This document shows, piece by piece, positions 8,027-26,220 of a stretch of 45,192 bases of DNA (its first letter is position 1; the number at the start of each line of letters is the position of its first letter). This DNA is from Acidobacteriaceae bacterium (GTDB lineage Bacteria > Acidobacteriota > Terriglobia > Terriglobales > Acidobacteriaceae): contig PKXU01000088.1 of the NCBI GenBank assembly GCA_003132445.1, forward strand, positions 44,118-89,309. The letters are read 5' to 3'. The notes under the pieces were generated by a model that was not told the origin of the DNA, ran no database searches, and saw only the letters and a list, made by a program, of their open reading frames with translations. The position numbers and the translations under genes are program-made.

Positions 8027-8077
8027 GCCGGGCGCAATCCGGCTATTGCCGAAGCCGTCGGCATACTTTCGTGAATC

Positions 8078-14000: not shown

Positions 14001-14722
14001 CCCGGGCAAGCATCGTAGTAGGCATTGGCGCTTTCGCGAATCTGGAAGAACACGTCGGGATTCTGCGCCGTACCGCGCAGCACCGGATGATCGGGCGAGA
14101 GAGCCCGTTGGCGGTGCTCGATGATGCGGTTCATGTTGAGCATGGCGCGCATATCGTCTTCATTCAACATTTCGATTTTGTTGACTTCGTGAGAAGTGCG
14201 GAAGCCGTCGAAGAAATGCATGAAAGGGATGCGAGTCTCGAGCGACGCGGCATGGGCGATCAGTGCCAGGTCCATCGCTTCCTGCACAGAGTTCGAACAG
14301 AGCATGGCCCAGCCGGTCGCGCGGCAGAACATCACGTCAGAGTGGTCACCAAAAATCGATAGCGCATGCGTGGCTAGCGTGCGGGCGGTGACATGAAACG
14401 TGCAGGGAGTCAGTTCGCCGGCAATCTTGTTCATATTCGGGATCATCAGCAGCAATCCCTGGGACGCAGTAAACGTAGTGGAAAGCGATCCCGTCTGCAG
14501 GGCGCCGTGAACCGCCCCGGCAGCGCCACCTTCACTCTGCATCTCGATGACATGGGGCACGCTGCCCCACGCGTTAGGAACGTTCTCAGAGGCCCATTGG
14601 TCCGCCCACTCGCCCATGGGCGAGGAAGGAGTGATTGGGTAAATGGCAATCACTTCGCTCGCACGGTAGGCCACATTGGCTACGGCTTCGTTGGCATCCA
14701 TGGTCTTGAATTTGCGTTTCAT
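11045..14722 (-). CDS. nifJ: Pyruvate:ferredoxin (flavodoxin) oxidoreductase, single-chain
   Basis: Oxidises pyruvate and CoA to acetyl-CoA and CO2, passing electrons to ferredoxin or flavodoxin. All domains of the homodimeric enzyme are fused in 1225 residues: N-terminal pyrimidine-binding part (IAIYPITPSSPMGEWAD, residues 26-42), CoA-related middle domains, a two-cluster ferredoxin domain (CIQCGKCAMVCP from 711 and CTGCGICVDVCP from 767), and the C-terminal thiamine diphosphate part with the proximal cluster cysteines in CAGCGE (841-846) and GGDGWAYDIGYGG near 990. The last about 35 residues are an Ala/Pro/Lys tail not needed for the fold. GGGAGA precedes the ATG. It heads the nifJ/PyrD-like/YwiC-like operon, and a perfect TGTGA-N6-TCACA dyad lies 114 bases upstream of the start, pointing to Crp/Fnr control. 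Confidence 0.97.
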   Translation of the reverse strand: MKRKFKTMDANEAVANVAYRASEVIAIYPITPSSPMGEWADQWASENVPNAWGSVPHVIEMQSEGGAAGAVHGALQTGSLSTTFTASQGLLLMIPNMNKIAGELTPCTFHVTARTLATHALSIFGDHSDVMFCRATGWAMLCSNSVQEAMDLALIAHAASLETRIPFMHFFDGFRTSHEVNKIEMLNEDDMRAMLNMNRIIEHRQRALSPDHPVLRGTAQNPDVFFQIRESANAYYDACPGKVQATMNQFAEIVGRSYHLFDYVGAPDADRVIVMMGSGAEAAHETVEYLNARGEKVGLLKVRLYRPFCVKAFLEALPTTVRKISVLDRTKESGAIGEPLYLDVVNALHEGLSKGYVVPDAFVRGKGQVSGADESAAPYVIVGGRYGLSSKEFTPAMVKAVYDNLKQSKPKDHFTIGIHDDIGHTSLDYDAAFSTEPDSVVRALFYGLGADGTVGANKNSIKIIGENTDNYGQGYFVYDSKKSGAMTVSHLRFGPQPIHSSYLVSKANFIACHQWIFLERYDMLSALVPGGVFLVNSPFDKEKVWEHLAREVQSQLIAKKAKLYAIDAYKVAQDAGMGSRTNTIMQVCFFAISKVLPRDEAIEAIRESIRHTYGRKGEDVVQKNMQAVDATLAHLFEVKIPDSVSSKSEIPAAFPGAPKFEHDVLGTIYAGRGDELPVSAFSCDGTFPTGTAKWEKRNLAPEIPAWDSKICIQCGKCAMVCPHAVIRIKVYDSKELEHAPTTFKACDARDKEWAGMKYTIQVAPEDCTGCGICVDVCPVKNKSEVRLKAINMVAQPPLRAPESENWDFFLKIPEMDRRKIKTGTIRQQQVQEPLFEFSGACAGCGETPYLKLVSQLFGDRAIVANATGCSSIYGGNLPTTPWSKNADGRGPAWSNSLFEDNAEFGLGFRVSIDKQTEFAHELLRRVAGSVGEELVTAILNAKQKDESDIYEQRQRVDLLKEKLATLNSPDAKQLLSVVDMLVKKSVWIVGGDGWAYDIGYGGLDHVLASGRNVNVLVLDTEVYSNTGGQASKSTPRGAVAKFAAGGKPGPKKDLGLMAMTYGNVYVASVAMGAKDEHTLKAFLEAEAYDGPSIIIAYSHCIAHGIDMTTAMTDQKVAVESGQWLLYRYNPERVAAGENPLVLDSRAPTRKVQEYMQQQTRFKMLTKSKPEDAKRLWKLAQQDVENRYRMYEYLANRKTEAPAAAKDAAEKTAPVAVKPAPTVAAH

Positions 14723-14828
14723 TCACGTCTCCCATTCCCACTATTGTGTTCCGGCCACCGGGTGACCGGTACAACTTCAGGATGCAGGAATAGGGCTGAG
14801 TATGTCGGGACGCAGGTTCACACCGAGG

Positions 14829-14844
14829 TGTGATTAGGATCACA
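14829..14844. promoter_or_regulatory. Crp/Fnr-type operator upstream of nifJ (perfect dyad)
   Basis: TGTGATTAGGATCACA fits TGTGA-N6-TCACA at all ten arm positions. It is in the 240-base gap between nifJ and the haem cytochrome gene, where only nifJ can be driven, centred about 114 bases before its ATG. Confidence 0.75.
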
Positions 14845-14962
14845 TTTTCCCGGACAGGGAAGGGAATTAGGAAGAGTTAACGTGTGAGCACGCTGAACTC
14901 TGCTGGCTCGTTCAGGCAAGGCAACCAACGCGCAACATCAAGGTCCTTTATTAATCAGTCGG

Positions 14963-16486
14963 TTACGGTCCCGTGCCGCCGGTGTGGCAGTCCGAGCAAG
15001 TCACTTGGGTCAGATCTCCGATATCAATAGGATGCTTGAAAGTTTGCGATGCCATCGCGGCGATGCTGGTCGCGCCCTCGGTTTCCGACATGAGCGTGTG
15101 GCACTGATTGCAATCTTTGCTGATGATCTTGCCGTCGGCGCTAACGTGCTGGCCATCGTGGCAGCGGAAGCAGCCGTTGAAGTAGTAGTGGCCAAGATTG
15201 TTGGGATGAGTCTCCCAGTTCAATTTCATTTCAGGAAATGTGGTGCGGCGGAAGATCTCCTGTATCTCGGTCACGGCGTTGCGAATTTCCAGCTGTTTGT
15301 TCCTGGCCGCGTCGGGGTACTTGCTCTCGTAAAAACTTTGTACGCCGCTGGCAATGCCGTGCATCGCTTCGTCCGTGGTCGCATAGGTGCCAGTGAGAAC
15401 CGTTACCGCTTCTTGCTTGATGAAGGGGAGGGTGATGTCCAGACGGTGCGCCAGCAAAGATTGATCGACGGACTGATCGGGTGGAACATAAATGTGGGTT
15501 GGGCGATTGTGGCAGTCCACGCAGTCCATGTGATGGCGGGAAGATTTTGCAATCTGGTCCTTGCTGAGAGTGGAGTCTTTAGCGTAGTACTCCGTGACCC
15601 GGCCCTGCAGATCTTCCACGTGAATGTAGGGAATGATCTGGCGCTTCTCATCGGCCGCCACATAGTCAATTTTGTTGCCGATGTTCATGTGCCAGTGAAT
15701 GCCTTCAGGTGCGCCGGTGGCCGGGTCTCCGCCGCCGGTCTTGATGATCAGGCGGATCTGACGCATGGTGTTTTGTTCGTCGTTGGCGTAGTGCGTGAAG
15801 ACTTTGAGCTGGCCGCCATAGAACTTCTTAGGCCAATGGCACTGTTCACAGGTGTCTTGCGCGGGGCGCAGATTATGCACCGGGGTCGGGATGGGTCTGG
15901 GAAAGGTATTAAAAGTTGCGGCATAGACCTGGCGTGCTCCCGACAACTTTGATTTCACGTACCAGGTGGCGCCCGAACCAACGTGGCAGTCGACGCAAGC
16001 CACACGCGCGTGCGGAGAAAGCTTGTAGGCGGTGTACTCGGGATTCATCACCGTGTGGCATAACTGCCCGCAGAACTGCACCGAATCGGTATATTCATAC
16101 GCCTTGTAGCTGCCCGCCGCGCTGACGGCGACAAACACGGTCAGAAAAGTCATGAACGAGATCACGGCACTGCGCTGGACGCGGTCATTGAGATCGATGC
16201 GAGGATAGAACTCGGTCGGCGCGATTTTCTTCCGCCGCTCGAGCACCACGCCCCCCAACATCAGCAGCAAGGCGAGAGCAAAAAATGCCGGCGCCACCAT
16301 GTAAGCGAGGATCCCGATGTAGGGATTTGGCCGATCCGCGATGAGATCAAGCAGTACGAAGAGGAAAATATTGGCCAGACTGACGATGGCCAGCGCCACT
16401 CCGGCGAGGCTAATGGGATTGCGCAGCAACAGGCGCAAGCGGCGGCGGGGCTCTGGTGCAGGCGGCGGAGTTGGCTCAGTGCTCAT
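14963..16486 (-). CDS. Seven-haem NapC/NirT-family inner-membrane cytochrome c (ImcH-like)
   Basis: Probable quinol-oxidising membrane cytochrome that hands electrons to periplasmic carriers. The 507-residue protein has three N-terminal hydrophobic segments, then FCGQLCHTVMNPEYTAY, a first haem site of C-X3-C-H form, followed by six CXXCH motifs (CVDCH, CEQCH, CVDCH, CFRCH, CNQCH, CSDCH), so about seven haems. The opening signature LSPHARVACVDCHVGSGATWYVKSKLSG is shared by the NapC/NirT group that includes Geobacter ImcH, as I recall that family. The start is the ATG at 16486, which lies inside the last codons of the upstream gene (ATGAGCACTGA, 11-base overlap); longer upstream starts would read through a lysine-rich stretch inside the neighbour. 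Last gene of the cytochrome operon. Confidence 0.88.
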   Translation of the reverse strand: MSTEPTPPPAPEPRRRLRLLLRNPISLAGVALAIVSLANIFLFVLLDLIADRPNPYIGILAYMVAPAFFALALLLMLGGVVLERRKKIAPTEFYPRIDLNDRVQRSAVISFMTFLTVFVAVSAAGSYKAYEYTDSVQFCGQLCHTVMNPEYTAYKLSPHARVACVDCHVGSGATWYVKSKLSGARQVYAATFNTFPRPIPTPVHNLRPAQDTCEQCHWPKKFYGGQLKVFTHYANDEQNTMRQIRLIIKTGGGDPATGAPEGIHWHMNIGNKIDYVAADEKRQIIPYIHVEDLQGRVTEYYAKDSTLSKDQIAKSSRHHMDCVDCHNRPTHIYVPPDQSVDQSLLAHRLDITLPFIKQEAVTVLTGTYATTDEAMHGIASGVQSFYESKYPDAARNKQLEIRNAVTEIQEIFRRTTFPEMKLNWETHPNNLGHYYFNGCFRCHDGQHVSADGKIISKDCNQCHTLMSETEGATSIAAMASQTFKHPIDIGDLTQVTCSDCHTGGTGP

Positions 16487-18518
16487 GTTTTGTTTGGGAA
16501 ACGACAGGTTCGTCTCCTTCTTCCTCTTCAACTTCTTTTTCTCCAGACGTGGCACCATCGCCGGAATCATCAAATGCGTTGGCGATCACGGCGCTGTCGA
16601 GTCCATGCTCGTCCTGATAGTGGTGTAGTGTCATTTTTCCATCCCACCACGCCCAATTCATCGGATAAACATCCGGGTCGAGGAACACCTGGTAGAAGTG
16701 CCATACGACGATTGCCAGCGTCGCCAGCACCGCTTCGTAGAAGTGAACGGCCGTCGCAACATCCAGCCACCAGCGGGGCAGGTGATTGCCGACGAGAACC
16801 TTGGCCCACAGCATGATTCCGGTCACAGCCATCACGATCATGCCCCAGACCAGAGCCCAGTATTCAGCTTTTTCCGCGTAATTAAAGCGGTCAAAGACGG
16901 GCTTGCGTGACGTGAAGCCCAGATAATAGCAAAGATTCTGCCATGCGCCCCGGACATCGTCGAGGGTGGGAAATAAATCACGGACCAATTTTCGTCCCTC
17001 GCCACTGAAAGTGATATCGAAAATGTGATAGACACTCACTCCAATGAGGGCGATGGCCGCGATGCGATGCACCAGTTGTCGGCGGTGCTCTCCGAGAGAG
17101 AGAGCGGCGGCAAACCACGAGTCAGGAAATTTCAACGCGAAGCCGGTGAGCACCAACACAATAAAACTGAGCAGCAGAATGGCGTGCTGGAGGCGGAAGC
17201 GCAGCGGCATACGCATCACGAAATTGTGCTGCAGTTTGCGGCGCGCAACGACTTTAGAGCGCCAGATGATGAAATTGTGCAGCAGCATGCCGCCAATCAC
17301 CGCGAAGATCATGCCCAGATAGAAGCGACGAATCCAGCGTACCGCTTTACTGCCGACGTCGGCGGAAAGGGGCGCGTCCACGTGAACTTTCGCAGCCGTA
17401 AATTTTTCCGTAACTCCCGGGTGGCACTGGCCGCAGGTGCGCGCCAGATTGGCATGGTTGATGGTCGAACGCGGATCGCTGGAGGGAAGAATATTGTGCA
17501 CTCCGTGGCAGCTTGCGCAATTCGCGACCACCTGTGATCCTCCGCGCGCGGCCAGGCCGTGATAGCTGGCCAGGTACGTGGTCTCGCGACGGCCTTCCAC
17601 GCCGAACTCTTGCGTGAGTCGCATGCCTTCATGGCAGCGCGCGCAGGTGGCTGCGGCGAGATTCTGCGCGGCGACCGCGGAAGTGGGGTCGAGATGCGAT
17701 TTGATGGAGTGGATACCGTGGCAATCGGTGCACACCGGCGCCTGCCAGTTACCCTTCGCAATGGCTTGTCCGTGGATGCTCTGGTTGAATTCCTTTGCGA
17801 TTGCCCCGTGGCACTGGCCGCACGTCGAGGGCACATTAAATTTGAAGATGGGCGACTTCGCATCCTTGGCGTCAAGAATTTCGTGCGTGCCGTGGCAGTC
17901 GGTGCACACCGCGGCTTTTTCCGAGCCCGCCGCAGTGGCGTGTCCATGGATGCTCTGCGTGTACGAAGCCACCATCTGTTCGCTTTGTCCGCCGTCGTGC
18001 ATCACAAATCTCTGGCTGTGACATGCGCCGCAAGTGGCAGGAATGTTGGTGTGATGTACGCGGGATTTGGGATCGCTGGCGGGCAACAGTTCATGCGGGC
18101 CGCCGTGGCAGTCGATGCAAGTGGCCGCCCGACTGTTTCCTCCCGCGACCGCCTTTCCGTGGAAGCTGCGATCGTACGCTGCCTGCTCGTCGGCATGGCA
18201 GGTCGCACAGTTGATCTTTAGAGGAAGGGTTTCATGTGCAGCAGTTTTTACGTCGGTGTGGCAGTCCACACAGGTGAACATGCTGCCGTGAATGGAATCT
18301 TTGAAATGTTGAGGATCGACATGCAAGCTGACCGGCTTGCCATTGACGTCATGGGTCAGCGAAGAGTCGCCGTGGCAAGCCAGGCATTCATCCGCGGTAG
18401 GTTTTGGAGGCTCCTTGCTCGCTGGCTGCTTGCCCGAGGCCTGCGCGATTCCGGCAGCAGAAAATAGGGTGAGGGCTACTCCAAGCGCAAAAATACTTCG
18501 TATTGTTCGCGTGGACAT
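16476..18518 (-). CDS. Undecahaem cytochrome c fused to cytochrome b561-type membrane domain (CbcL-like)
   Basis: Predicted membrane-anchored quinol:cytochrome oxidoreductase, 680 residues. A signal segment (about 5-27) is followed by eleven CXXCH haem motifs in roughly the first 390 residues, arranged in repeats of the type SIHGxAxAxGxxxAxxCxDCHGxH. The last third has five or so membrane helices with paired histidines (LLHNFIIW, LQHAILLLSF, VHRIAAIALIGVSVYHIF, VHFYEAVLATLAIVVWHF), like the di-haem b subunits of formate dehydrogenase and hydrogenase. The C-terminus is an acidic tail ending with KHEH. This c+b fusion is the layout of Geobacter CbcL (nine c haems there). ATG 18518 is preferred over a GTG at 18530 because GGTGGG precedes it. 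Lies 84 bases after the small cytochrome c gene. Confidence 0.88.
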   Translation of the reverse strand: MSTRTIRSIFALGVALTLFSAAGIAQASGKQPASKEPPKPTADECLACHGDSSLTHDVNGKPVSLHVDPQHFKDSIHGSMFTCVDCHTDVKTAAHETLPLKINCATCHADEQAAYDRSFHGKAVAGGNSRAATCIDCHGGPHELLPASDPKSRVHHTNIPATCGACHSQRFVMHDGGQSEQMVASYTQSIHGHATAAGSEKAAVCTDCHGTHEILDAKDAKSPIFKFNVPSTCGQCHGAIAKEFNQSIHGQAIAKGNWQAPVCTDCHGIHSIKSHLDPTSAVAAQNLAAATCARCHEGMRLTQEFGVEGRRETTYLASYHGLAARGGSQVVANCASCHGVHNILPSSDPRSTINHANLARTCGQCHPGVTEKFTAAKVHVDAPLSADVGSKAVRWIRRFYLGMIFAVIGGMLLHNFIIWRSKVVARRKLQHNFVMRMPLRFRLQHAILLLSFIVLVLTGFALKFPDSWFAAALSLGEHRRQLVHRIAAIALIGVSVYHIFDITFSGEGRKLVRDLFPTLDDVRGAWQNLCYYLGFTSRKPVFDRFNYAEKAEYWALVWGMIVMAVTGIMLWAKVLVGNHLPRWWLDVATAVHFYEAVLATLAIVVWHFYQVFLDPDVYPMNWAWWDGKMTLHHYQDEHGLDSAVIANAFDDSGDGATSGEKEVEEEEGDEPVVSQTKHEH

Positions 18519-18602
18519 GCTCCCACCCACCGTTTCTTACGAATAACGATCTCCGAGCAGCGGCATCGCGGCCGCGTTCGACTACTTATTACTGGCCCAT
18601 TA

Positions 18603-18929
18603 TTACTTCAAGGTGCGAATGTAGGCGACCAGCCCCGCGATATCCGAGTCCTTCAGCTTGCCGCTGTAGGCTGGCATTTTGCCTTTGCCGTTGGTAATAA
18701 TGGCGGTCAACTGAGCGTCGCTTTGCTTCTGCACGTCGGCAGAGGTGAAATCGTGCGCGCCCATTTTCACGCCCATGGTTGAACCCTTGCCGTCTGGACC
18801 GTGGCACATGGCGCACTTTGCTTTATAGGTTGCAGCCGCGTCCTGCGCCATTGCCGTCGACGAGCAGATTGCAATGACTCCGCTGGCCAAAAGGCTCACC
18901 AGGACGACACGAACCGAGAGATGTTTCAT
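18603..18929 (-). CDS. Small class I cytochrome c, periplasmic
   Basis: Soluble mono-haem electron carrier of 108 residues. A cleavable signal peptide (MKHLSVRVVL to ...AMAQ, about 29 residues) is followed by CAMCH at 39-43 and the sixth-ligand methionine in GKMPAYSGKL, the standard c-553/c6-like pattern, ending with DIAGLVAYIRTLK. The ATG at 18929 has AGGAGG ten or so bases upstream; an open frame continues upstream but is not protein-like. It leads the operon with the 11-haem and 7-haem membrane cytochromes and is the natural periplasmic electron acceptor for them (inference). Two Crp/Fnr-type sites lie about 200 and 235 bases upstream. Confidence 0.92.
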   Translation of the reverse strand: MKHLSVRVVLVSLLASGVIAICSSTAMAQDAAATYKAKCAMCHGPDGKGSTMGVKMGAHDFTSADVQKQSDAQLTAIITNGKGKMPAYSGKLKDSDIAGLVAYIRTLK

Positions 18930-19120
18930 TGTTTTGCTTCCTCCTGAGGAAGTTTGATTCCGCACGATATCACGGAGCAAGGGCGGCACGGTATCGGGAT
19001 TGCCCTTTTCGGAATGCACTTTCCGCAATTGGGTCTTCCGTTTCGCATCCTGAGAACTCGCTTGCAGGCCTAGGATCACATGCCTGCAAAAGTGAACCTA
19101 TGGCAGAAGTCACGCCGCCG

Positions 19121-19136
19121 CGTGATGAGCCTCACA
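19121..19136. promoter_or_regulatory. Crp/Fnr-type operator, 9/10 match
   Basis: CGTGATGAGCCTCACA matches TGTGA-N6-TCACA with one change. Centred about 200 bases upstream of the cytochrome c ATG and about 159 upstream of the VOC gene. Its centre is 35 bases from that of the next site. Confidence 0.6.
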
Positions 19137-19155
19137 GTGACTTTTCCAGATCGAC

Positions 19156-19171
19156 TGTGACCTTCATCACG
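19156..19171. promoter_or_regulatory. Crp/Fnr-type operator, 9/10 match
   Basis: TGTGACCTTCATCACG matches the dyad with one change. Paired with the site at 19121-19136; about 124 bases upstream of the VOC gene start and about 235 upstream of the cytochrome c start. Confidence 0.6.
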
Positions 19172-19287
19172 GCACATCCGGTTCGGCGTGCAGTTTTGAA
19201 GGCTCGCAATCGAACGTTCTAATCTGTTGTTTCCCGAAGGTTCTTTATATCTGCTCGCCAAAACAGGAGTCTGTTAGGGTAGGTGCA

Positions 19288-19725
19288 ATGCGCCCCCAGC
19301 CTCTCATCTGTGTCACGGATGTCGAAGCCAGCAGCCGGTGGTACCAGCGCCTGCTAGGCTGCCGTGGGGCTCACGGCGGCAGGCAATATGAGCAACTGGT
19401 GAAGGATGGCTGGCTCATCCTGCAATTGCACAGCTTTGAAGTTGAACATCATCACAGCCCGATCGGCAATCGCGCCGACGGACCCTACGGCAATGGTGTG
19501 CTGCTCTGGTTCGAGGTGGTTGACTTCGACGCGGTAATGCAGCGCGCTGCCGAAATGGGCGTCGAGATCGTGCTGCCCCGCCATCGCAACCCTCCCGATG
19601 GCGAAGGCGGACCCAACCATTGGGAGTGTTGGATGCGCGACCCGGATGGCTACACTGTTGTGGTAGCCAGCCCTTATGGAACCGCCGACGGTGCCTGGCG
19701 CCCGGGCCCTGATCTATTCACCTAG
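19288..19725 (+). CDS. VOC (glyoxalase/bleomycin-resistance/dioxygenase) superfamily protein
   Basis: Single-chain protein of 145 residues with the paired beta-alpha-beta-beta-beta modules of the vicinal oxygen chelate fold. It opens PLICVTDVEASSRWYQRLLG, the usual first-module signature, and ends with WECWMRDPDGYTVVVASPYG, carrying the typical second-module glutamate/DPDG element. Family members bind a metal and act as lyases, dioxygenases or antibiotic-binding proteins; the substrate cannot be read here. GGGTAGG precedes the ATG. It is divergent from the cytochrome operon and shares its regulatory gap with two Crp/Fnr-type sites, so it may belong to the same regulon. Confidence 0.85.
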   Translation: MRPQPLICVTDVEASSRWYQRLLGCRGAHGGRQYEQLVKDGWLILQLHSFEVEHHHSPIGNRADGPYGNGVLLWFEVVDFDAVMQRAAEMGVEIVLPRHRNPPDGEGGPNHWECWMRDPDGYTVVVASPYGTADGAWRPGPDLFT

Positions 19726-19786
19726 TCCCCCTGGCCGAACTCCAAGGTGTGTTTACAGCTTATGCTTGTTTCGGCTCACACAGGCT

Positions 19787-19802
19787 TGTGATTGTGATCA
19801 CA
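19787..19802. promoter_or_regulatory. Crp/Fnr-type operator (perfect dyad)
   Basis: TGTGATTGTGATCACA fits all ten arm positions of TGTGA-N6-TCACA. It lies 62 bases after the VOC gene stop and about 163 bases before the start of the cysteine-rich 128-residue gene. Confidence 0.75.
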
Positions 19803-19871
19803 CGATCTATTCCCAGAAATTTCTAATATTGGGCAGTTCGCAAGACACGGGCGTAAACGTTGCCGACTCAG

Positions 19872-19887
19872 TGTGAGCTTAATCACT
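19872..19887. promoter_or_regulatory. Crp/Fnr-type operator, 9/10 match
   Basis: TGTGAGCTTAATCACT matches with one change. Centred about 78 bases upstream of the ATG at 19958 and 85 bases, close to eight helical turns, from the perfect site at 19787-19802. Confidence 0.65.
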
Positions 19888-19957
19888 AATCCTCGTGACC
19901 CCATGCACGGCCCTCCGCAGCAGTCTCTGGCATTCTCGTTTCTTATTGAGGTGCCTT

Positions 19958-20344
19958 ATGGCTCAAGACAATCGTGATGTTCTGGATGTACTCCGGTTCG
20001 AACTGAGCTTTCTGCAGGATGGAGGATACGGGCGATCTCCGCACGCGACGTGGCGAGCGCCGTCTATTTTTGAGGATTCTCCAACTTGCCCGAATTTCTG
20101 CGATCCCGCTCGGCCGCACCCTTGCGAGAATTGCCTGTTAGAGCAATTTGTTCCCCAGGATCGCCGCGACGAGGCCGTGCCCTGCCGCTTCATTGAATTG
20201 ACGGCAGACGGTCAATCGTTGCAGGACTTCTATCGCACAGCGACGCAGGCTGATATGGAAGCGGCGCTGGCGGGCTGGCTGCGGAAACAAATTCAGAAGA
20301 TTGAAGAAGAGCGTGGTCTCGTGCCAAAGCAGGGCGCAGCGTAG
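19958..20344 (+). CDS. Unknown cysteine-rich cytosolic protein
   Basis: I do not recognise this 128-residue protein. It has no signal peptide or membrane segment. A compact cysteine cluster in the middle reads CPNFCDPARPHPCENC (C-X3-C-X7-C-X2-C, residues about 48-63), with one more cysteine in AVPCRF; four closely set cysteines suggest a zinc or iron-sulfur site. The N-terminal part (DVLRFELSFLQDGGYGRSP) and the helical C-terminus (ADMEAALAGWLRKQIQKIEEE) are soluble. The ATG at 19958 is preceded by GAGGTG with five bases of spacing; upstream in-frame codons lie over a regulatory dyad and are unlikely to be translated. Two Crp/Fnr-type sites upstream and OsmC downstream (about 105 bases) suggest a redox or stress function, which is inference. 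Confidence 0.7.
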   Translation: MAQDNRDVLDVLRFELSFLQDGGYGRSPHATWRAPSIFEDSPTCPNFCDPARPHPCENCLLEQFVPQDRRDEAVPCRFIELTADGQSLQDFYRTATQADMEAALAGWLRKQIQKIEEERGLVPKQGAA

Positions 20345-20448
20345 GGGAAAGCGCACTGGCGACGACGGTGTTCGGCGGATTCGAGTGACGCAACCGCTGA
20401 GAGTGAAGGATCTCTCGCGGCCAACCTAAGGTCAGGAGAGCTAAGATT

Positions 20449-20901
20449 ATGAGCGAAGAACATGCATATCGAGTAGCAGCGTGGTGGACTTCCGGCCGCA
20501 CCGGTTTAGCTAAATCGGATTCCGCGCCCAACGCCATCCACTTCACGGCTCCAGCTGAATTCGGCGGCATGGAAGGCCGTTGGACGCCGGAAGAACTTTT
20601 GCTCGCTTCCGTCGCAAGTTGCTATACCACGACCCTGCGAGCGATAGCGGGCACTGCGCACTTCGACTTCACCGATTTGCAGGTCGAGGCCAGTGGCACA
20701 GTGCGTAAGGTCGACCTTGGCTACAGCTTTGCCGAAATCATCGTTCGTCCAAATCTCAAGATCGCCTCCGCGACCGAACGAGACCGGGCGCTGGACTTGC
20801 TGAGACGCGCAGAAAAGCTGTGCCTGGTTTTGCGCGCGTTAGGAACGAACGTGAAGTTTGAACCGCAACTAGAAATCGTAACCACCGAAGCTACGGTGTA
20901 A
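20449..20901 (+). CDS. OsmC/Ohr-family protein
   Basis: Likely thiol-dependent hydroperoxide reductase, cytosolic, 150 residues. The two redox cysteines of the family are visible: one in LLASVASCYTTTLRAIA (near residue 62) and one in AEKLCLVLRAL (near 125). The segment GRWTPEELLLASVASC is the usual N-terminal active-site helix. The sequence is closer to the general OsmC-like branch (SACOL1771 type) than to Ohr by its overall wording, though this is a judgement by eye. AGGAG lies about eleven bases before the ATG. It follows the cysteine-rich unknown gene in the same direction and converges with the synthetase gene 23 bases away. Confidence 0.85.
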   Translation: MSEEHAYRVAAWWTSGRTGLAKSDSAPNAIHFTAPAEFGGMEGRWTPEELLLASVASCYTTTLRAIAGTAHFDFTDLQVEASGTVRKVDLGYSFAEIIVRPNLKIASATERDRALDLLRRAEKLCLVLRALGTNVKFEPQLEIVTTEATV

Positions 20902-20924
20902 ATGAAGCGATAGCCTGGTCGAGC

Positions 20925-23678
20925 TCAGAGTTGCAGCGACGCTGAAACTGACCCGGGATCGTTCATCCAGCGCAGCCGAAACCCTACTTTTTTGAAGATA
21001 GCCTGAGTGGCTAAGTTGTCGCGCAAGATTTCGCCGGAAAGTTTCTGGAACTTTTCTTCGCGCGCCACCCGAACCACGGTGGCAAGTAGTTCTGTTCCCA
21101 ATCCCAGTCCCTGCCAGCGATCGGAGACCAGCACGGCAGCTTCGGCTTCCACGCGGCTGATCGCGCTAAATCTGCCCACGCCTAGTATTTCGCGTTGAGA
21201 CGTTTCTGGATTGCTGCGATCGGCAACCATCGCGAATCCACGGTCATAGCTGCCAAAACAAATGCGCACCAGCCGTTCATGTTCCACCCGCGTGCTCAGA
21301 CTCAAGGAACAAAAATAGCGCAGGTACACGCTGCGCTCGGAAAGTGTGGAGTGAAACTGCACCATGAGCGGCTCGTCTTCCGGACGAATCGGCCGAATGG
21401 TCACAGCGGTGCCATCTTTCAGCCGATGCTCCGAGACATACTGCATGGGATAGGGTCGAATGGTGGCGCGCGGCAGTTGCGCCGCCGTCATGGTGGAATC
21501 GTGCACTACGACGCGCGCATCCAGCGCCAACAGATTCTCTGCGGTCGCCAGCAGCGGATTGATATCGATTTCCTTAATCCAGGGCTGCTCCATCACCAAC
21601 TGGCTGAAGCGCACCAGCAGCCCTTCAAGAGCGATAATATTCACGGGTTTGCGACCGCGCACGCCCAGCAGAGCCGAATAGATTCTCGTCTGTTCCATTA
21701 ACCGCTGAGCCAGAGTTGTGTTTAGCGGAGGCAGGGCGAGCGCGTGATCCCGGTAAATCTCGACCATCACGCCGCCGGAGCCGAATAGAATGACCGGCCC
21801 GAATTGCGGATCGAGGGTGCTGCCCAGAATCAACTCGTATCCGTCGCGACTGATCATCGGCTGCACAGTGACTCCGGCAAAATGTTCGGCGCCGGCTTTT
21901 TCTGTGACCGAAGATTGAATCGCCCGATAGGCGTGGCGAACCTGGTCTGGTTTCTGCAAGTTCAGGCGCACTCCGTCGACGTCAGTTTTGTGCGCGATGG
22001 TATGAGAAAGAAGTTTCAGCACTACCGGATACCCGATTTCCGCGGCGCAAACAACCGCTTGTTCTTCGTCTTGTGCCGTGCGCGTTTCCACAACCGGAAT
22101 TCCGTAGTCGGCGAGGAGTTGTTTGGCCTCAAATTCGTTGAGCATGGTCCTGCCGCTCTGTCGCGCGCGTTGCACCGTTTCCGTCACTTTTGTGCGCGCT
22201 TCGGAGGAGACTGCCGAACCTTCCAGCAGCGCCGGTGTTTCGTACAGTCCGCGCAAGTTGTAGGTGTAGCGCCACATGTAGGTGAAGGCCCGCGCAGCCG
22301 TGTCAGGATAAGAGAACGTAGGAATTCCGGCGGCATTGAGAATCGCAGTCCCTTCGGCCACACCGGCGCCGCCCATCCAGCTGGCCAGCAGTGGTTTGGC
22401 GGAGGAGTGCGAGAGTGCACGCATTTTTTCCGCCACCTGCGTCGGATGTGCCAGCCCCTGGGGCGCTACGATGGCCAGCAATCCGTCGCTCGCTGGATCT
22501 TTCGACGCAACCTCGACTGCTTTCACGAAGTGCTCAGCATCCGCGTCCGCCAACACATCCACGGGATTGCTGTGGCTCCAGTGTGCCGAAAGAAAACTAT
22601 CCAGCTCCTTCAGAGATGCGGAAGAAAGAACGGTGAGCTCTCCTCCGGTCGCCATGAGCGAGTCCGTCGCCAGCACTCCGGGACCGCCTGCATTGGTCAC
22701 GATGGTGAGGTGAGGACCGCGCGGCCGAGGCTGCTTGCTCAACACCTCCGCCATGTAAAAAAGGTCCGCAATATTCTGCACCCGCAGCACACCGCAGCGC
22801 CGAAATGCCGCGTCCAGCACTTCATCGCTTCCCGTCAACGCTCCCGTATGCGAGGCAGCCGCCCGCGACGCTGATTCCGAACGTCCTGCTTTGATAACGA
22901 TAATGGGCTTGCTCAGCGCGGTTTCCCGCGCCGCCGAAAGGAACGCTCGCGCGTCACCCACCGATTCCATGTAAAGCAGGATGCTCTTGGTGTGGGGATC
23001 GTCTCCGAAGTGATAAATGAGATCTCCCCACCCGACGTCGAGCATGGAGCCAGTCGAAACCACGGCGCTAAATCCAACCTGTTCGCTCAGGCTCCAATCC
23101 AGAATCGAAGTCAGCAGCGCGCCGCTCTGACTCAAAAATGCGACACTGCCTTTTTGCGGCATTGACTTCGCAAAGGTGGCGTTCAACCCAATAGTCGGAT
23201 TCATAAAGCCCATGCAGTTGGGACCGACCAGGCGCAGGCCTCCGCGCTGCAGGTGTTTCTGAATTTCTTCTTCCAGGCGCGCGCCTTCGCTGCCCTGTTC
23301 GCGAAATCCGGCAGAGATCACGACCGCCGACTTCACTCCTGCGTCAACGCACTCGCCGATAATGCCGGGCACGGTTTGCGCCGGCGTCACGATCAGTGCA
23401 AGATCGACTCCTCCAGTGATTTCGCCGATACTTTTGTGGGTTTTGATTCCCAGTACTTCCCCGTGCGTGGGACTCACAGCATAAACCTGGATGGGGAACT
23501 TGCTTTCCAGCAAATTCGAGACGACGCTTCGCCCGACCGTGCCGGCGCGATCGGTCGCTCCGATCACAGCCACCGAACGCGGGCAAAAGAGCGAATCGAG
23601 ACCTCCGCGAGCCGGAGTGGCGGCGGTGTAAAGCTTGCCAGCGGGCGATAGTGCGGTGGCGCTCGTTACGTCACTCAA
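20925..23678 (-). CDS. ADP-forming acyl-CoA synthetase (alpha+beta) fused to GNAT acetyltransferase
   Basis: 917-residue three-part protein. Residues about 25-480 are the CoA-binding and ligase (alpha) part, with [18 protein letters not shown] and the phosphohistidine region [11 protein letters not shown] (His277). Residues about 510-730 are the ATP-grasp (beta) part ([52 protein letters not shown]). Residues about 745-917 are a GNAT domain ([33 protein letters not shown]). This is the layout of the Pat/PatZ lysine acetyltransferases, whose synthetase part is thought to be inactive; here the catalytic-type His is kept, so ATP formation from acetyl-CoA remains possible. The start is a TTG at 23678 with AGAGGAA upstream. 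Divergent from the Crp/Fnr gene across a 264-base gap with a perfect dyad. Confidence 0.88.
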
Positions 23679-23882
23679 AGAGTTCCTCTCGCTAACCTGG
23701 ATGGGGACATTTTTTCACAACTTGAACGAACCAACTTAAACGAATCAAGGCGAAATAGGGTTGGCGGACAATATGCGCCGTAAGCCCCAGGTCTCGTTTC
23801 GCGAGACCTGGGCGGAATCTGCCATGCTTTCACCATTTTCGGCGGGCCCGTGAGACACACTATGCGGAGAATCACGCGGGCT

Positions 23883-23898
23883 TGTGACAGCGATCACA
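23883..23898. promoter_or_regulatory. Crp/Fnr-type operator (perfect dyad) before the regulator gene
   Basis: TGTGACAGCGATCACA fits all ten arm positions. It is centred about 52 bases before the GTG start of the Crp/Fnr gene and about 213 bases before the start of the divergent synthetase, so autoregulation is likely and joint control of the synthetase possible. Confidence 0.75.
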
Positions 23899-23942
23899 GT
23901 CAGAAATGGGGACAGCAATTCGAATTCAAAGGGAGGTGCACA

Positions 23943-24674
23943 GTGCGCGCCCCTTATGGTCTAAATATTCTCGATAACTGCCTTACCTGTCCGGTAAGGG
24001 AAGAACATCTTTTTTGTAATCTTTCCGTTCAAGCCGGACAACGACTCAACGAAATAAAATCCACTGCTGTCTATCCGAAAGGAGCGACGCTCTTTATCGA
24101 AGGGCAGCAATCTCGAGGCGTGTTTGTACTGTGCGCCGGAAAAGCAAAACTTTCTACCTCTTCCCGCGAAGGCAAAACCATCATCACCAAACTTTCCGGG
24201 GCAGGCGATGTTCTGGGACTGAATTCGGTCGTTTCCAATCGACCCTACGAAGTTACCGCTGAAATGATGGAACCCGGCCAGGCCAATTTCATTCCCCGCG
24301 ATTCTTTACTGCAATTCCTGAAAGACAACGGAGAAGTAGCCTTGCGGGTCGCTGAACAATTGAGCCGCAATTACTACACCGCGTTCGAAGAGATTCGCAC
24401 TCTCGGTCTCAGTACCTCGCCCTCGGAGAAGTTTGCCAAGTTGCTTCTGTCATGGTCGAGCCAGTCCCCGTCGAACCAGGCCCCGCAAACCGACGGGCCG
24501 TTGCAGATAAAGCTCACCCTCACGCACGAGGAAATTGCCGAAATGATCGGCACCACCCGGGAAACCGTCAGCCGCCTATTTTCTGATTTCAAGAAGAGGC
24601 AGTTGCTTCAGCTCAAAGGGTCGAACCTGCTGATCCGCAATCGATCGGCGCTGGAAAAAATTGTGCAGTCCTGA
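23943..24674 (+). CDS. Crp/Fnr-family transcription regulator with N-terminal cysteines
   Basis: DNA-binding regulator of 243 residues. The N-terminus has C13-X2-C16-X8-C25 (NCLTCPVREEHLFC), reminiscent of the FNR iron-sulfur ligands; a fourth cysteine, Cys64 (FVLCAGKAK), is not at the FNR Cys122 position. Residues about 35-135 form the cyclic-nucleotide-type beta roll (YPKGATLFIEGQ, GDVLGLNSVV), without the cAMP-binding RSAR pattern. A long dimer helix leads to a winged helix-turn-helix LTHEEIAEMIGTTRETVSRLF (194-213). R206-E207-x-x-S210-R211 matches the CRP recognition helix RETVGR closely, predicting TGTGA half-sites. The GTG at 23943 is chosen because GGGAGG lies six bases upstream; an upstream in-frame ATG would put the operator inside the gene. 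Fnr-like oxygen sensing is a fair inference. Confidence 0.9.
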   Translation: MRAPYGLNILDNCLTCPVREEHLFCNLSVQAGQRLNEIKSTAVYPKGATLFIEGQQSRGVFVLCAGKAKLSTSSREGKTIITKLSGAGDVLGLNSVVSNRPYEVTAEMMEPGQANFIPRDSLLQFLKDNGEVALRVAEQLSRNYYTAFEEIRTLGLSTSPSEKFAKLLLSWSSQSPSNQAPQTDGPLQIKLTLTHEEIAEMIGTTRETVSRLFSDFKKRQLLQLKGSNLLIRNRSALEKIVQS

Positions 24675-24816
24675 ACGCCGGGAACCCGGCTGGCCGTGGG
24701 TTTCGTGCGGTTGAAGGCCTCTTCCGGTTGCAGGATCGGCCATTGGTTGATGGGGAACTGGGGCGTCGCCAAAGGTTGTCGAAAGAACTGTCCCTCCCCG
24801 CGCGACGCCCTCCCTT

Positions 24817-25791
24817 TTATCCCGCGACTGTCAACACCGGGCACGTGGCTTCCCGAATGACTTCGTGGACAGTAGTCCACGGGATGTGGGCGGCCATCCT
24901 CGGCGATGTGGTCTGGTTCGCTCCCATCACGATCAAATCAACGTTGAACTTAACACTTGCCCTCAGCACTCCCTCTGCCAGGAAATCGGTTCCTACGATA
25001 TAGCGGGGCTCTTGCTCCAGGCCCGTTTCCGCAGGCAAACATTTCTTTAACTGCTCGAGGGCTCGTGCGCGGGACGTTCCCTCCCACTCCTGCACCGTGT
25101 CAGCGGCCGCCGTCGCCGGTGCATAAGAGCACATATTCGCAGAGGTCGATGGGATCGGAGGGATCATGTGCAACAGAATCAGTTTTGCTTGCTGGGCTCT
25201 GGCCAGCGCCAAGGTCACCGGCATAGCTTTCGCGGACCCCTTGCCGAAGTCGGTCGCAAATAGAATCGTGTGAAATCCCGCTTTACGAGTGAACGCTGCA
25301 ATCTCTACCTGCGGACCGATTGTCATCACCGGGCAGGTCGCGACACGCAGGAGTTCCTCGGCTACGGAACCGAGAGCCAGCTTATGAACACTTCCGCGCC
25401 CTCGCGTGCCGATGACCAGAAGATCAATCGCTTTCTCTTCAATTACCGACTCAACCTGTGACTCAACGTGTCCGTGCCTTACGAAAACTTCGATTTTCCG
25501 CTCGGGTTTCAATTCATCCAGCAGCGCCGTGATCTGCTTTTCGGCGGCAATGCGCTCCAAGTCAAGTTCTGGCGGATTGTCCAGCGCCGCATACTTGCGA
25601 TTCGCGTGCAATACATGAACCACGGATAACTGTGCATTGTTTTCTTCCGCCAGCGTGAGCGCCTCGCATAGAGCTCGGCGGGAAGGTTCCGAGAAATCCG
25701 TTGCCACCAGAATGTTTCGGAAAGCCACACTGCTCACTGACGGTTTTAATGCGAACGGTTTTAATGCGGTATTCATTTCGGCGACGGTCAT
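24817..25791 (-). CDS. Tandem universal stress protein (two UspA domains)
   Basis: 324 residues made of two UspA folds in tandem. Domain one (about 23-155) starts FRNILVATDFSEPSRRAL and carries the ATP-binding signature GTRGRGSVHKLALGSVAEELL, the G-2X-G-9X-G-S/T pattern. Domain two (about 170-324) starts FHTILFATDFGKGSAKAM, but its nucleotide loop is changed (MGANQTTSPRMAAHIPWTT), so it probably does not bind ATP. AGGAGG precedes the ATG. Usp proteins act in energy limitation and stress survival in the cytosol. It follows the zinc-ribbon gene by 24 bases, so both probably answer to the dyad at 26205-26220; in other bacteria many usp genes are under Fnr-type control. Confidence 0.92.
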   Translation of the reverse strand: MTVAEMNTALKPFALKPSVSSVAFRNILVATDFSEPSRRALCEALTLAEENNAQLSVVHVLHANRKYAALDNPPELDLERIAAEKQITALLDELKPERKIEVFVRHGHVESQVESVIEEKAIDLLVIGTRGRGSVHKLALGSVAEELLRVATCPVMTIGPQVEIAAFTRKAGFHTILFATDFGKGSAKAMPVTLALARAQQAKLILLHMIPPIPSTSANMCSYAPATAAADTVQEWEGTSRARALEQLKKCLPAETGLEQEPRYIVGTDFLAEGVLRASVKFNVDLIVMGANQTTSPRMAAHIPWTTVHEVIREATCPVLTVAG

Positions 25792-25815
25792 AAAACCTCC
25801 TTTACCGCACCCACT

Positions 25816-26127
25816 TCAAACGTCCTCGCGGCCAACACTTGCGGCTCGTGTGCGCCATCTTCTTCCTTCGGTCTCACCTTTCGACGCAGTCGGCGCGGGT
25901 GGCGCCTTCTGGACGGCCAGGCTTACCACTTTCACCGTGGAACCCGCCCAGATTACCGTCATCTCTTGGGCACAACGGGGGCAAAGCCAGAATCGCTCAT
26001 GCAGTCCCGGATACAACATTCCCACGGCAATTTGTACGTCGGGGGTTGGCGCGAGGTAGAAAATTCGTCCCTCGTGCAGATAACGAAAGGTGTTAGAACA
26101 GTCGGGATTGACGCACTTCGACAGCAT
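25816..26127 (-). CDS. Small zinc-ribbon protein of unknown function
   Basis: 103-residue cytosolic protein with two cysteine pairs: C5-X4-C10 in SKCVNPDCSNTF at the N-terminus and C-X2-C in FWLCPRCAQEM near residue 50, a likely four-cysteine zinc ribbon. The segment RYLHEGRIFYL is familiar from small hypothetical proteins of Acidobacteriota (recollection, not a search). The C-terminal third is basic and low-complexity. AGGAGTG precedes the ATG. It is the first gene of a two-gene unit with the tandem Usp gene, and a Crp/Fnr-type dyad is centred about 85 bases before its start. Confidence 0.75.
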   Translation of the reverse strand: MLSKCVNPDCSNTFRYLHEGRIFYLAPTPDVQIAVGMLYPGLHERFWLCPRCAQEMTVIWAGSTVKVVSLAVQKAPPAPTASKGETEGRRWRTRAASVGREDV

Positions 26128-26204
26128 GGCGCACTCCTGCCAGCCGCATGCTCAAAGAGTATTTCATTTCCGGCAGGAATGAGGTGATAGTCGATACGAA
26201 ACTA

Positions 26205-26220
26205 TGTGATATCCATCACC
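26205..26220. promoter_or_regulatory. Crp/Fnr-type operator, 9/10 match
   Basis: TGTGATATCCATCACC matches TGTGA-N6-TCACA with one change. Centred about 85 bases upstream of the zinc-ribbon/Usp unit and about 262 upstream of the HAD gene in the other direction. Confidence 0.65.

Follow-up and report, generated by a model that had tools for sequence, protein, structure and literature searches.

The dyads with the pattern TGTGA-N6-TCACA described here lie in a 45,192-nt stretch of contig PKXU01000088.1 of an Acidobacteriaceae bacterium (the window, meaning this whole stretch), which also encodes their candidate reader, an FNR-like regulator (23943-24674). The systems with which they can be compared are CRP and FNR of Escherichia coli, Fnr of Bacillus and the FnrN-type proteins of α-proteobacteria. 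In CRP/FNR proteins the recognition-helix residues R, E, T, V and R set the site specificity, and E72, R82 and S83 of CRP are residues of the cyclic AMP (cAMP) pocket; nifJ and cydA are usual targets of low-oxygen regulons. The tandem CRP or FNR promoters of E. coli take up two dimers, one of them near -41.5, on separate full sites which are further apart. Two dimers per promoter are also predicted here, but the dyads abut at 22 bp and one of them is only a half-dyad.

With E. coli CRP our system shares the dyad itself and the recognition residues; class I and class II positions, which for CRP are -61.5 and -41.5 (PMC5957442, in part), are predicted here too. In contrast to CRP, the regulator of the window has N-terminal cysteines and lacks the cAMP-pocket residues, and the predicted class I position of -63.5 is set by the 22-bp tandem. 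With E. coli FNR it shares the CRP/FNR fold, the N-terminal Cx2C with a third cysteine, a likely low-oxygen role, a predicted class II spacing and a neighbouring usp gene (uspE-fnr in K-12). The differences from FNR concern the site (TTGAT there, TGTGA here), the recognition helix (ETxSR and RETVxR, respectively), the fourth cysteine (C122 in FNR; C64, at the place of R72, in the window regulator) and the operators, which here come in three half-sites. Bacillus Fnr uses TGTGAN6TCACA (PMC8151001, Table 1, in part), so FNR-type sensing combined with a CRP-type site is not new in itself; the ligands of its [4Fe-4S] cluster are located at the C-terminus together with an aspartate (PMC3520743, in part), whereas the cysteines of the window regulator are N-terminal. 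The FnrN-type proteins also have N-terminal cysteines with the third one shifted, and their targets include uspA and oxidase genes with sites at about -41.5; their box is TTGAc/t-N4-g/aTCAA, and the parts of the source examined contain no three-half-site arrangement (PMC7713065).

Within the literature searched, the operator layout with a third half-site is unmatched and no account of a third CRP/FNR half-site was found, which is weak evidence of absence as most subscription journals lay outside the coverage. Also, the same literature yielded no regulator of the anaerobic genes of the Sulfotelmatobacter-group Terriglobia, which are peat and soil dwellers living where oxygen comes and goes. We consider it probable that the dyads are operators of FNR-like CRP/FNR regulators, often in the form of sites with three half-sites (tri-sites), which seat two dimers 22 bp apart and serve joint anaerobic activation.

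Distribution of the dyads

The original prediction, made from the window alone, described a clustered local regulon of seven intergenic dyads around their own regulator. The rescan found exactly these seven at the positions claimed (Table 1), three of them perfect (14829, 19787 and 23883) and four with one mismatch (19121, 19156, 19872 and 26205), and no further dyad with 0-1 mismatch in the 45,192 nt; the pattern is palindromic and each site was counted once. In all four one-mismatch dyads the changed base is the outermost one. A separate gene caller placed all seven in intergenic regions and all 16 two-mismatch matches inside called genes. The position of 23883 depends on the start of the regulator: it falls inside the longest open reading frame (23850-24674), and is counted as upstream because the orthologues support a start at 23943. 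At up to two mismatches the window has 23 matches against a mean of 14.3 in 100 dinucleotide shuffles (23 were reached in 2 of them); this excess is modest, and the window signal is therefore confined to the 0-1 mismatch class. Seven dyads in 11.4 kb, against 0.15 expected at the genome rate (69 sites), give a Poisson P = 3e-10, uncorrected for how the region was chosen.

The host genome (5.12 Mb in 203 contigs, 87% complete) contains 131 dyads with 0-1 mismatch, against 50 for the reversed pattern. Perfect dyads number 26 against 0, those with a changed outer base 43 against 11, and those with a changed innermost base 14 against 9, which shows that the motif is real and that its tolerance for change lies in the outermost base. 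The 26 perfect and 43 outer-change dyads make up the set of 69 sites used below. Their surroundings were taken as 57 stretches, two of which (L185 and L186) were included for the paralogues of the regulator and contain no counted site. Outside the window, 45 of the 62 sites are intergenic according to the separate gene caller, although the fetched sequence is 85% coding; the sites are thus not equally frequent inside genes.

Perfect dyads are also frequent in 36 genomes of the same genus, the Candidatus Sulfotelmatobacter group (864 against 53 reversed; 3-67 per genome), and less so in 24 genomes outside it (49 against 12). There are 2.1-8.2 perfect sites per Mb in the 30 genomes with a homologue of the regulator at ≥50% identity (a count that takes in a few contig-edge fragments) and 0.7-2.2 in the seven without one. 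Across these 37 genomes the number of homologues and the perfect sites per Mb have a Spearman coefficient of 0.78, uncorrected for phylogeny. The dyads are a regulon which spans the genome and the genus rather than a local one, and the window is an exceptionally dense knot within it; the cluster of the original prediction stands, its local character does not.

Concerning the orthologous genes, a perfect dyad is present in 18 of 19 distinct nifJ upstreams of relatives, and a site in 9/9 upstreams of the acetyl-CoA hydrolase-family gene (seven perfect) and in 13/28 of cydA (10/12 at ≥86% identity). The upstreams of the control gene prs contain none (0/22). A site lies within 200 bp of the regulator start in 17/18 orthologues at ≥83% identity, 23/45 at 70-82% and 12/15 at 45-69%, while the reversed pattern occurs there in 1/78. 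Some of the 22 upstreams without a site in the 70-82% group belong to a second paralogue with a more distant site (about -226 to -230 in L050 and L068). The FNR-type pattern TTGAT-N4-ATCAA is perfect in 0/78 tested upstreams and has one mismatch in 1/78. Dyad 26205 appeared unconserved at 0-1 mismatch, a view that was dropped when a search at two mismatches found its GTGA-N6-TCAC core in 8/9 relatives.

The modest excess at up to two mismatches could be read as favouring chance, or a repeat artefact, as the origin of the seven-dyad cluster. This explanation is refuted by the 26 against 0 perfect sites in the genome, the intergenic position and the conservation of the sites while the spacers vary, and we give it practically no credence.

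Third and fourth half-sites

The flanks of the 69 sites were scanned for an outward half-site of at least 4/5 (TCACA on the left or TGTGA on the right) at gaps 0 to 40. A third half-site is found at gap 6 in 29 of the 69 sites, against 0-4 at each of the 40 other gaps. In the window five of the seven dyads have one, which the original prediction did not report (14829, 19121, 19787, 19872 and 23883; all but 19156 and 26205). The 12-base core of the tri-site, TCAC-N8-GTGA-N6-TCAC, occurs 26 times in the genome, against 1 for its reverse, and 846 against 11 times in 37 genus genomes. The outer base of the third half-site is relaxed (A, C, G and T in 6, 6, 7 and 3 of 22 own tri-sites).

Across genomes the tri-sites co-occur with the regulator. 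Within the genus there are 0-7 per genome in the seven genomes without a homologue at ≥50% and 3-62 in the other 30. The 24 genomes outside the genus contain 19 tri-sites (2 reversed), 13 of them in G053 and G055, whose homologues are at about 50%. In a phylum sample of 217 genomes, hand-summed counts give 233 tri-sites in the 27 genomes with a regulator homologue (E 1e-40) and 64 in the 190 without. Eight genomes of the distant genus g56 have the regulator, and in six of these the genome's single tri-site is located 30-43 bp downstream of the regulator gene's 3' end. At two inspected loci (L258 and L261) the tri-site is followed, at a distance of a few hundred bases, by a c-type cytochrome-like gene with another perfect dyad just before it. 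One genome of another family (G058) has 12 perfect dyads and no tri-site.

Beyond the third half-site there is a fourth, degenerate one. For a TGTGA arm in this position, gap 6 is the best of 40 gaps in both own and relative tri-sites; the mean number of matches is 2.27/5 in the 22 own tri-sites and 2.60/5 in 148 relative ones (a set that includes orthologues), with a background mean of 1.28 in both. Its central T is retained in 15 of the 22 own and 98 of the 148 relative tri-sites, and its central G in 13 and 99, respectively. Therefore, the element consists of two dyads, 22 bp from centre to centre, one of which is worn on its outer arm. The full array of four half-sites is rare: an arm of 4/5 stands in the 22-bp position at 9 of the 69 sites, a number to which each pair contributes both of its members. 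One such array, at L163 (G000:C77; sites 3006 and 3028), has its dyads exactly 22 bp apart and lies before a gene for an ArsR-type regulator.

Promoter geometry

Alignment of 19 nifJ promoters shows fixed distances between the dyad, the third half-site on the gene side, the GAC of a -35-like element and a CATnCT hexamer, while the spacers vary. The same layout is found in the promoters of the cysteine-rich unknown (15, with TGG before the hexamer) and of the cytochrome (10); in those of cydA (10) and the hydrolase (9) the hexamer is about 22 bp nearer to the dyad. The predicted cytochrome -10 at 19072..19077 implies the ATG ending at 18929, rather than the one at 19079, as the start of cytochrome c. 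The leader before this likely ATG would be longer than 100 nt (18929-19077), and the distance is long in 9/10 aligned relatives as well.

We profiled the oriented sites with a blind T1-A2-T6 score, indexed from the first base of the dyad and counting each promoter family once. The profiles exclude sites between divergent candidate genes, sites without a called gene within 300 bp downstream and seven sites flanked by a third half-site on either side. The -10-like peak is at index 59 when the third half-site is proximal to the gene (23 families, z 3.5), and at index 37 when it is distal (18 families, z 4.2) or lacking (33 families, z 3.9); for the latter two classes the -10-like hexamer occupies index 37-42 in the profile. 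The own genome alone gives 59 (n=7), 37 (n=11) and 38 (n=14), respectively. A gene-facing third half-site thus goes with a hexamer that is more distant from the dyad by exactly 22 bp. A first impression by eye, that the third half-site is oriented at random to the gene, was abandoned after these profiles. If the last base of the hexamer is taken as -7, a dyad with a proximal third half-site would be centred at -63.5 and the half-dyad at -41.5; in the other classes the dyad itself would be at -41.5.

The third half-site may instead be the target of another protein or a leftover of site turnover, with a single dimer on each dyad. We regard this as improbable. It would agree with a third half-site that is often only TCAC, with the weak fourth (2.27/5) and with the rarity of the complete array (9/69). 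Turnover would not be expected, however, to conserve the nifJ third half-site base for base while the spacers vary, to place the fourth at the exact 22-bp register in both sets of tri-sites, or to make the -10 shift, by exactly 22 bp, according to which side the third half-site is on; these three observations argue against a single dimer.

The promoters of the regulator itself differ in layout. The alignments were restricted to upstreams with a site, which for the regulator means 42 of 63 distinct ones, and 34 of the 42 have TACAAT close behind the dyad, most commonly at index 32 (13) or 26 (12); the window copy has a degraded form of it. These positions would put the centre of the dyad near -36.5 or -30.5, over the -35 region, which predicts self-repression, i.e. 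negative autoregulation of the regulator gene.

The regulator and its paralogues

The regulator has 243 residues, with a GTG start at 23943 preceded by GGGAGG. PF00027 (cNMP-binding fold) and PF13545 (Crp-type helix-turn-helix) both score above their cut-offs and place it in the CRP/FNR superfamily. It reaches neither the NCBIfam cut-off for FNR (PRK11161; 58.7 bits, 228 needed) nor that for CRP (PRK11753; 51.2 bits, 266 needed). Its AlphaFold model (predicted local distance difference test score 80.5) matches MtbCRP, GlxR and A. fischeri FNR with template modelling scores of 0.80-0.83 by query length. The closest homologues (88-90%) are found in Candidatus Sulfotelmatobacter and Acidobacteriaceae genome bins. 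An alignment of 38 homologues, the most distant at 43% identity, shows C13, C16, C25, C64, R206, E207, T208, V209 and R211 among the invariant residues.

The recognition helix, TTRETVSR, equals that of E. coli CRP (CSRETVGR) at R, E, T, V and R, which fits a TGTGA-type site; that of E. coli FNR is LTVETISR, with no arginine ahead of the glutamate. The N-terminal cysteines have the spacing Cx2Cx8C, and C64, which aligns with R72 of E. coli FNR, may be a relocated fourth cluster ligand. The regulator is thus predicted to combine FNR-like sensing with CRP-like sites, and the 23943-24674 protein is probably the oxygen-sensing reader of the dyads.

The own genome also encodes an 80% copy (C97) and a 45% copy (C87), both with an identical recognition helix; sites therefore cannot be assigned to one protein, and the original prediction was right in pointing to 23943-24674 as a Crp/Fnr-type candidate with its own site, though not in treating it as the sole one. 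Either paralogue, or a true cAMP-CRP, could be the main reader, with the window gene merely a target; we think this rather unlikely. The shared helix speaks for a paralogue, as does a tri-site at C97:80638-80663, which precedes the C97 copy by about 220 bp. Against it, sites per Mb are fewest in the seven genus members without a homologue at ≥50%, even though most of these keep the 45% type. As for cAMP-CRP, alignment with the E. coli protein shows E72, R82 and S83 to be absent from the window regulator, and we disfavoured it as reader for this reason. Our preference remains with the window regulator, very probably together with its paralogues.

The signal, too, might be something other than oxygen, such as nitric oxide, redox dyes or another ligand, in which case the regulon would not be strictly anaerobic. 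This seems to us about as unlikely as a different reader. The cysteine spacing (Cx2Cx8C plus C64, against Cx2Cx5C plus C122 in E. coli FNR) and the stress proteins OsmC and Usp among the targets would suit it, as would the replacement of C122 in the window type; its place is taken by glycine in the window protein (in 4/7 acidobacterial homologue rows, L018, L123, L258 and L266, it is cysteine). On the other side, nifJ and cydA are among the targets, and the shifted third cysteine is also found in α-proteobacterial FnrN proteins (PMC7713065, in part), so that oxygen remains the favoured signal.

Three further observations concern the regulator genes. A broken copy with an in-frame stop is present at L149 (G000:C181:4312-4455), with a perfect dyad at 8032 of the same contig. 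In L265, L270, L271, L273 and L274 a second, shorter FNR-like gene (29-42% match) directly follows the regulator as a tandem pair. A usp gene adjoins the regulator in the window (23943-25791), at distant acidobacterial loci (L257; L258, L264 and L266) and in E. coli K-12 (uspE-fnr).

Proposed mechanism

The sequence comparisons show the sites, their conservation, the third and fourth half-sites, the -10 offsets and the co-occurrence with the regulator; from these we infer a mechanism that specifies the cluster, DNA binding, oxygen sensing, start sites, cooperativity and direction of control. The 23943-24674 protein, and very probably its paralogues, would read TGTGA-N6-TCACA through the CRP-type recognition helix, and the dimer would become able to bind at low oxygen by means of an iron-sulphur cluster held by C13, C16, C25 and perhaps C64. 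On a tri-site, with its 11-bp register, two dimers would sit side by side on the same DNA face with their centres 22 bp apart, at about -63.5 and -41.5, one on the full dyad and the other on the half-dyad, held by the neighbouring dimer. A gene-facing half-dyad would fill the class II position, its outer arm yielding to the -35 region; where the half-dyad faces away from the gene, the full dyad would be at -41.5. At sites without a third half-site a single dimer would act alone at -41.5. Class I and class II activation would then act jointly on the anaerobic genes for pyruvate, acetyl-CoA, cytochromes and stress, and the regulator's own gene, where the dyad is too near the -10, would be repressed.

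A number of observations weigh against this mechanism and the regulon behind it. The correlation with homologue number carries the limit given above, 17 of the 62 sites outside the window lie inside called genes (some probably by chance), and 40 of the 69 sites have no third half-site of 4/5 or better. G014, G035 and G002 have a close homologue yet few sites (11, 11 and 14 perfect; 3, 7 and 5 tri-sites). Without a homologue at E 1e-40, G246 has seven tri-sites and G111 four; those of G246 possibly belong to another regulator with the same layout. The cydA site is absent in 13/16 more distant homologues. The own-genome peak for proximal third half-sites is based on seven sites and tied with index 79, and the -10 and -35 assignments presuppose a sigma-70-type promoter. 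The glycine at the C122 place also counts here.

A broader claim, which we hold to be evenly balanced, is that this is a lineage-specific operator grammar: FNR-like regulators of Acidobacteriota would use an 11-bp-phased, 27-bp box of three half-sites with class I and class II activation built in, and a sensor with a relocated fourth cysteine. The box would be a single unit for two dimers, one of them always seated through a half-dyad that gives up its outer arm. If true, a single 27-bp element with both activation classes could sharpen the response to oxygen. The analysis yields a defined candidate regulator, a list of the regulon and a testable rule for the sites, for which culture of the host is not required. 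How a pair of CRP/FNR dimers can share a promoter is an old question, and a half-dyad with which the promoter moves exactly two helical turns makes it directly testable.

Genes behind the sites

The features of the window are listed in Table 1. As proposed in the original prediction, the gene content in Pfam and NCBIfam matches fits low oxygen. The cysteine-rich protein has no family match in Pfam or NCBIfam, and an OsmC gene (Pfam) follows it. The divergent synthetase was said to act in acetyl-CoA energy conversion; it is of the ADP-forming acyl-CoA synthetase type with a C-terminal acetyltransferase-like region, and may or may not have this role. That region has a weak match to mycobacterial Pat, and the protein may be a protein acetyltransferase instead of an energy-conserving synthetase.

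Table 1. Coordinates of the dyads, half-sites, promoter elements and genes of the window
Feature	Position	Strand	Evidence
Perfect dyad, nifJ promoter; predicted class I position (~-63.5)	14829..14844	-	Perfect dyad in 18/19 distinct nifJ upstreams of relatives; alignment
Dyad, one outer change, cytochrome promoter	19121..19136	-	Pattern scan, aligned promoters
Additional upstream dyad, one outer change, without third half-site	19156..19171	.	Pattern scan, flank scan
Perfect dyad, upstream one of the pair before the cysteine-rich unknown	19787..19802	+	Pattern scan, flank scan
Dyad, one outer change, gene-near one of the pair; predicted ~-63.5	19872..19887	+	Pattern scan, aligned promoters
Perfect dyad, 45 bp 5' of the regulator's own start; predicted to overlap its -35	23883..23898	+	Scan, aligned promoters
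Dyad, one outer change, before the zinc-ribbon/Usp unit, without third half-site	26205..26220	-	Scan; core kept in 8/9 relatives
Third half-site of 14829 (TCACA, 5/5), N6, nifJ side; predicted class II half-dyad (~-41.5)	14818..14822	-	Each of its five bases kept in 18-19 of 19 aligned nifJ promoters
Third half-site of 19121 (TCACG, 4/5), cytochrome side	19110..19114	-	GTGA in 10/10 aligned promoters
Third half-site of 19787 (TCACA, 5/5), gene-distal	19776..19780	+	Flank scan
Third half-site of 19872 (CGTGA, 4/5), gene-proximal; predicted half-dyad ~-41.5	19894..19898	+	GTGA in 15/15 aligned promoters
Third half-site of 23883 (TCACG, 4/5), gene-distal	23872..23876	+	TCAC in 37-39 of 42 aligned promoters per base
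-10-like hexamer CATCCT of nifJ, one base further out than in most relatives	14779..14784	-	Aligned promoters
-10-like hexamer GATCCT of the cytochrome promoter	19072..19077	-	Aligned promoters
-10-like hexamer CATTCT, TGG ahead (extended -10), cysteine-rich unknown	19931..19936	+	Aligned promoters
FNR-like regulator, CRP-type recognition helix, candidate reader of the dyads	23943..24674	+	Pfam domains, homologue alignment, structure model
nifJ, pyruvate:ferredoxin oxidoreductase	11045..14722	-	TIGR02176, 1865.8 bits
NapC/NirT-type multihaem cytochrome	14963..16573	-	Pfam
Cytochrome c (18603-18929) and multihaem cytochrome with cytochrome b561-like region (16476-18530)	16476..18929	-	Profile matches
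Cysteine-rich protein of unknown function, first gene behind the dyad pair	19958..20344	+	Start from gene caller
ADP-forming-type acyl-CoA synthetase, C-terminal acetyltransferase-like region, divergent from the regulator	20925..23678	-	Profile matches
Small zinc-ribbon-like protein (25816-26127; label from the original prediction, no Pfam match) and Usp (24817-25791)	24817..26127	-	Pfam

Elsewhere in the genome, where a called gene lies downstream of a site, the Pfam matches include cydA, an acetyl-CoA hydrolase/transferase, GAPDH, acetyl-CoA synthetase, alanine dehydrogenase/transhydrogenase, Usp, c-type and multihaem cytochromes, a DHODB-type iron-sulphur protein, AsnA, ArsD and an ArsR-type regulator. 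Translations behind further sites read as a ferredoxin and 2-oxoacid:ferredoxin oxidoreductase operon and a NapH-like protein. Other genes behind sites are outside any anaerobic theme: those for a TetR regulator, TonB-dependent receptors, an IS200-type transposase, a histidine kinase and a Mg-chelatase-type protein. Judged by gene content, the genes behind the dyads suit low oxygen (nifJ, cydA, acetyl-CoA enzymes, multihaem cytochromes and Usp). At L155 (G000:C27) two sites, 3001 and 6846, are 3.8 kb apart with identical flanks, before genes for an outer-membrane barrel protein and a multihaem cytochrome; this is a duplicated promoter.

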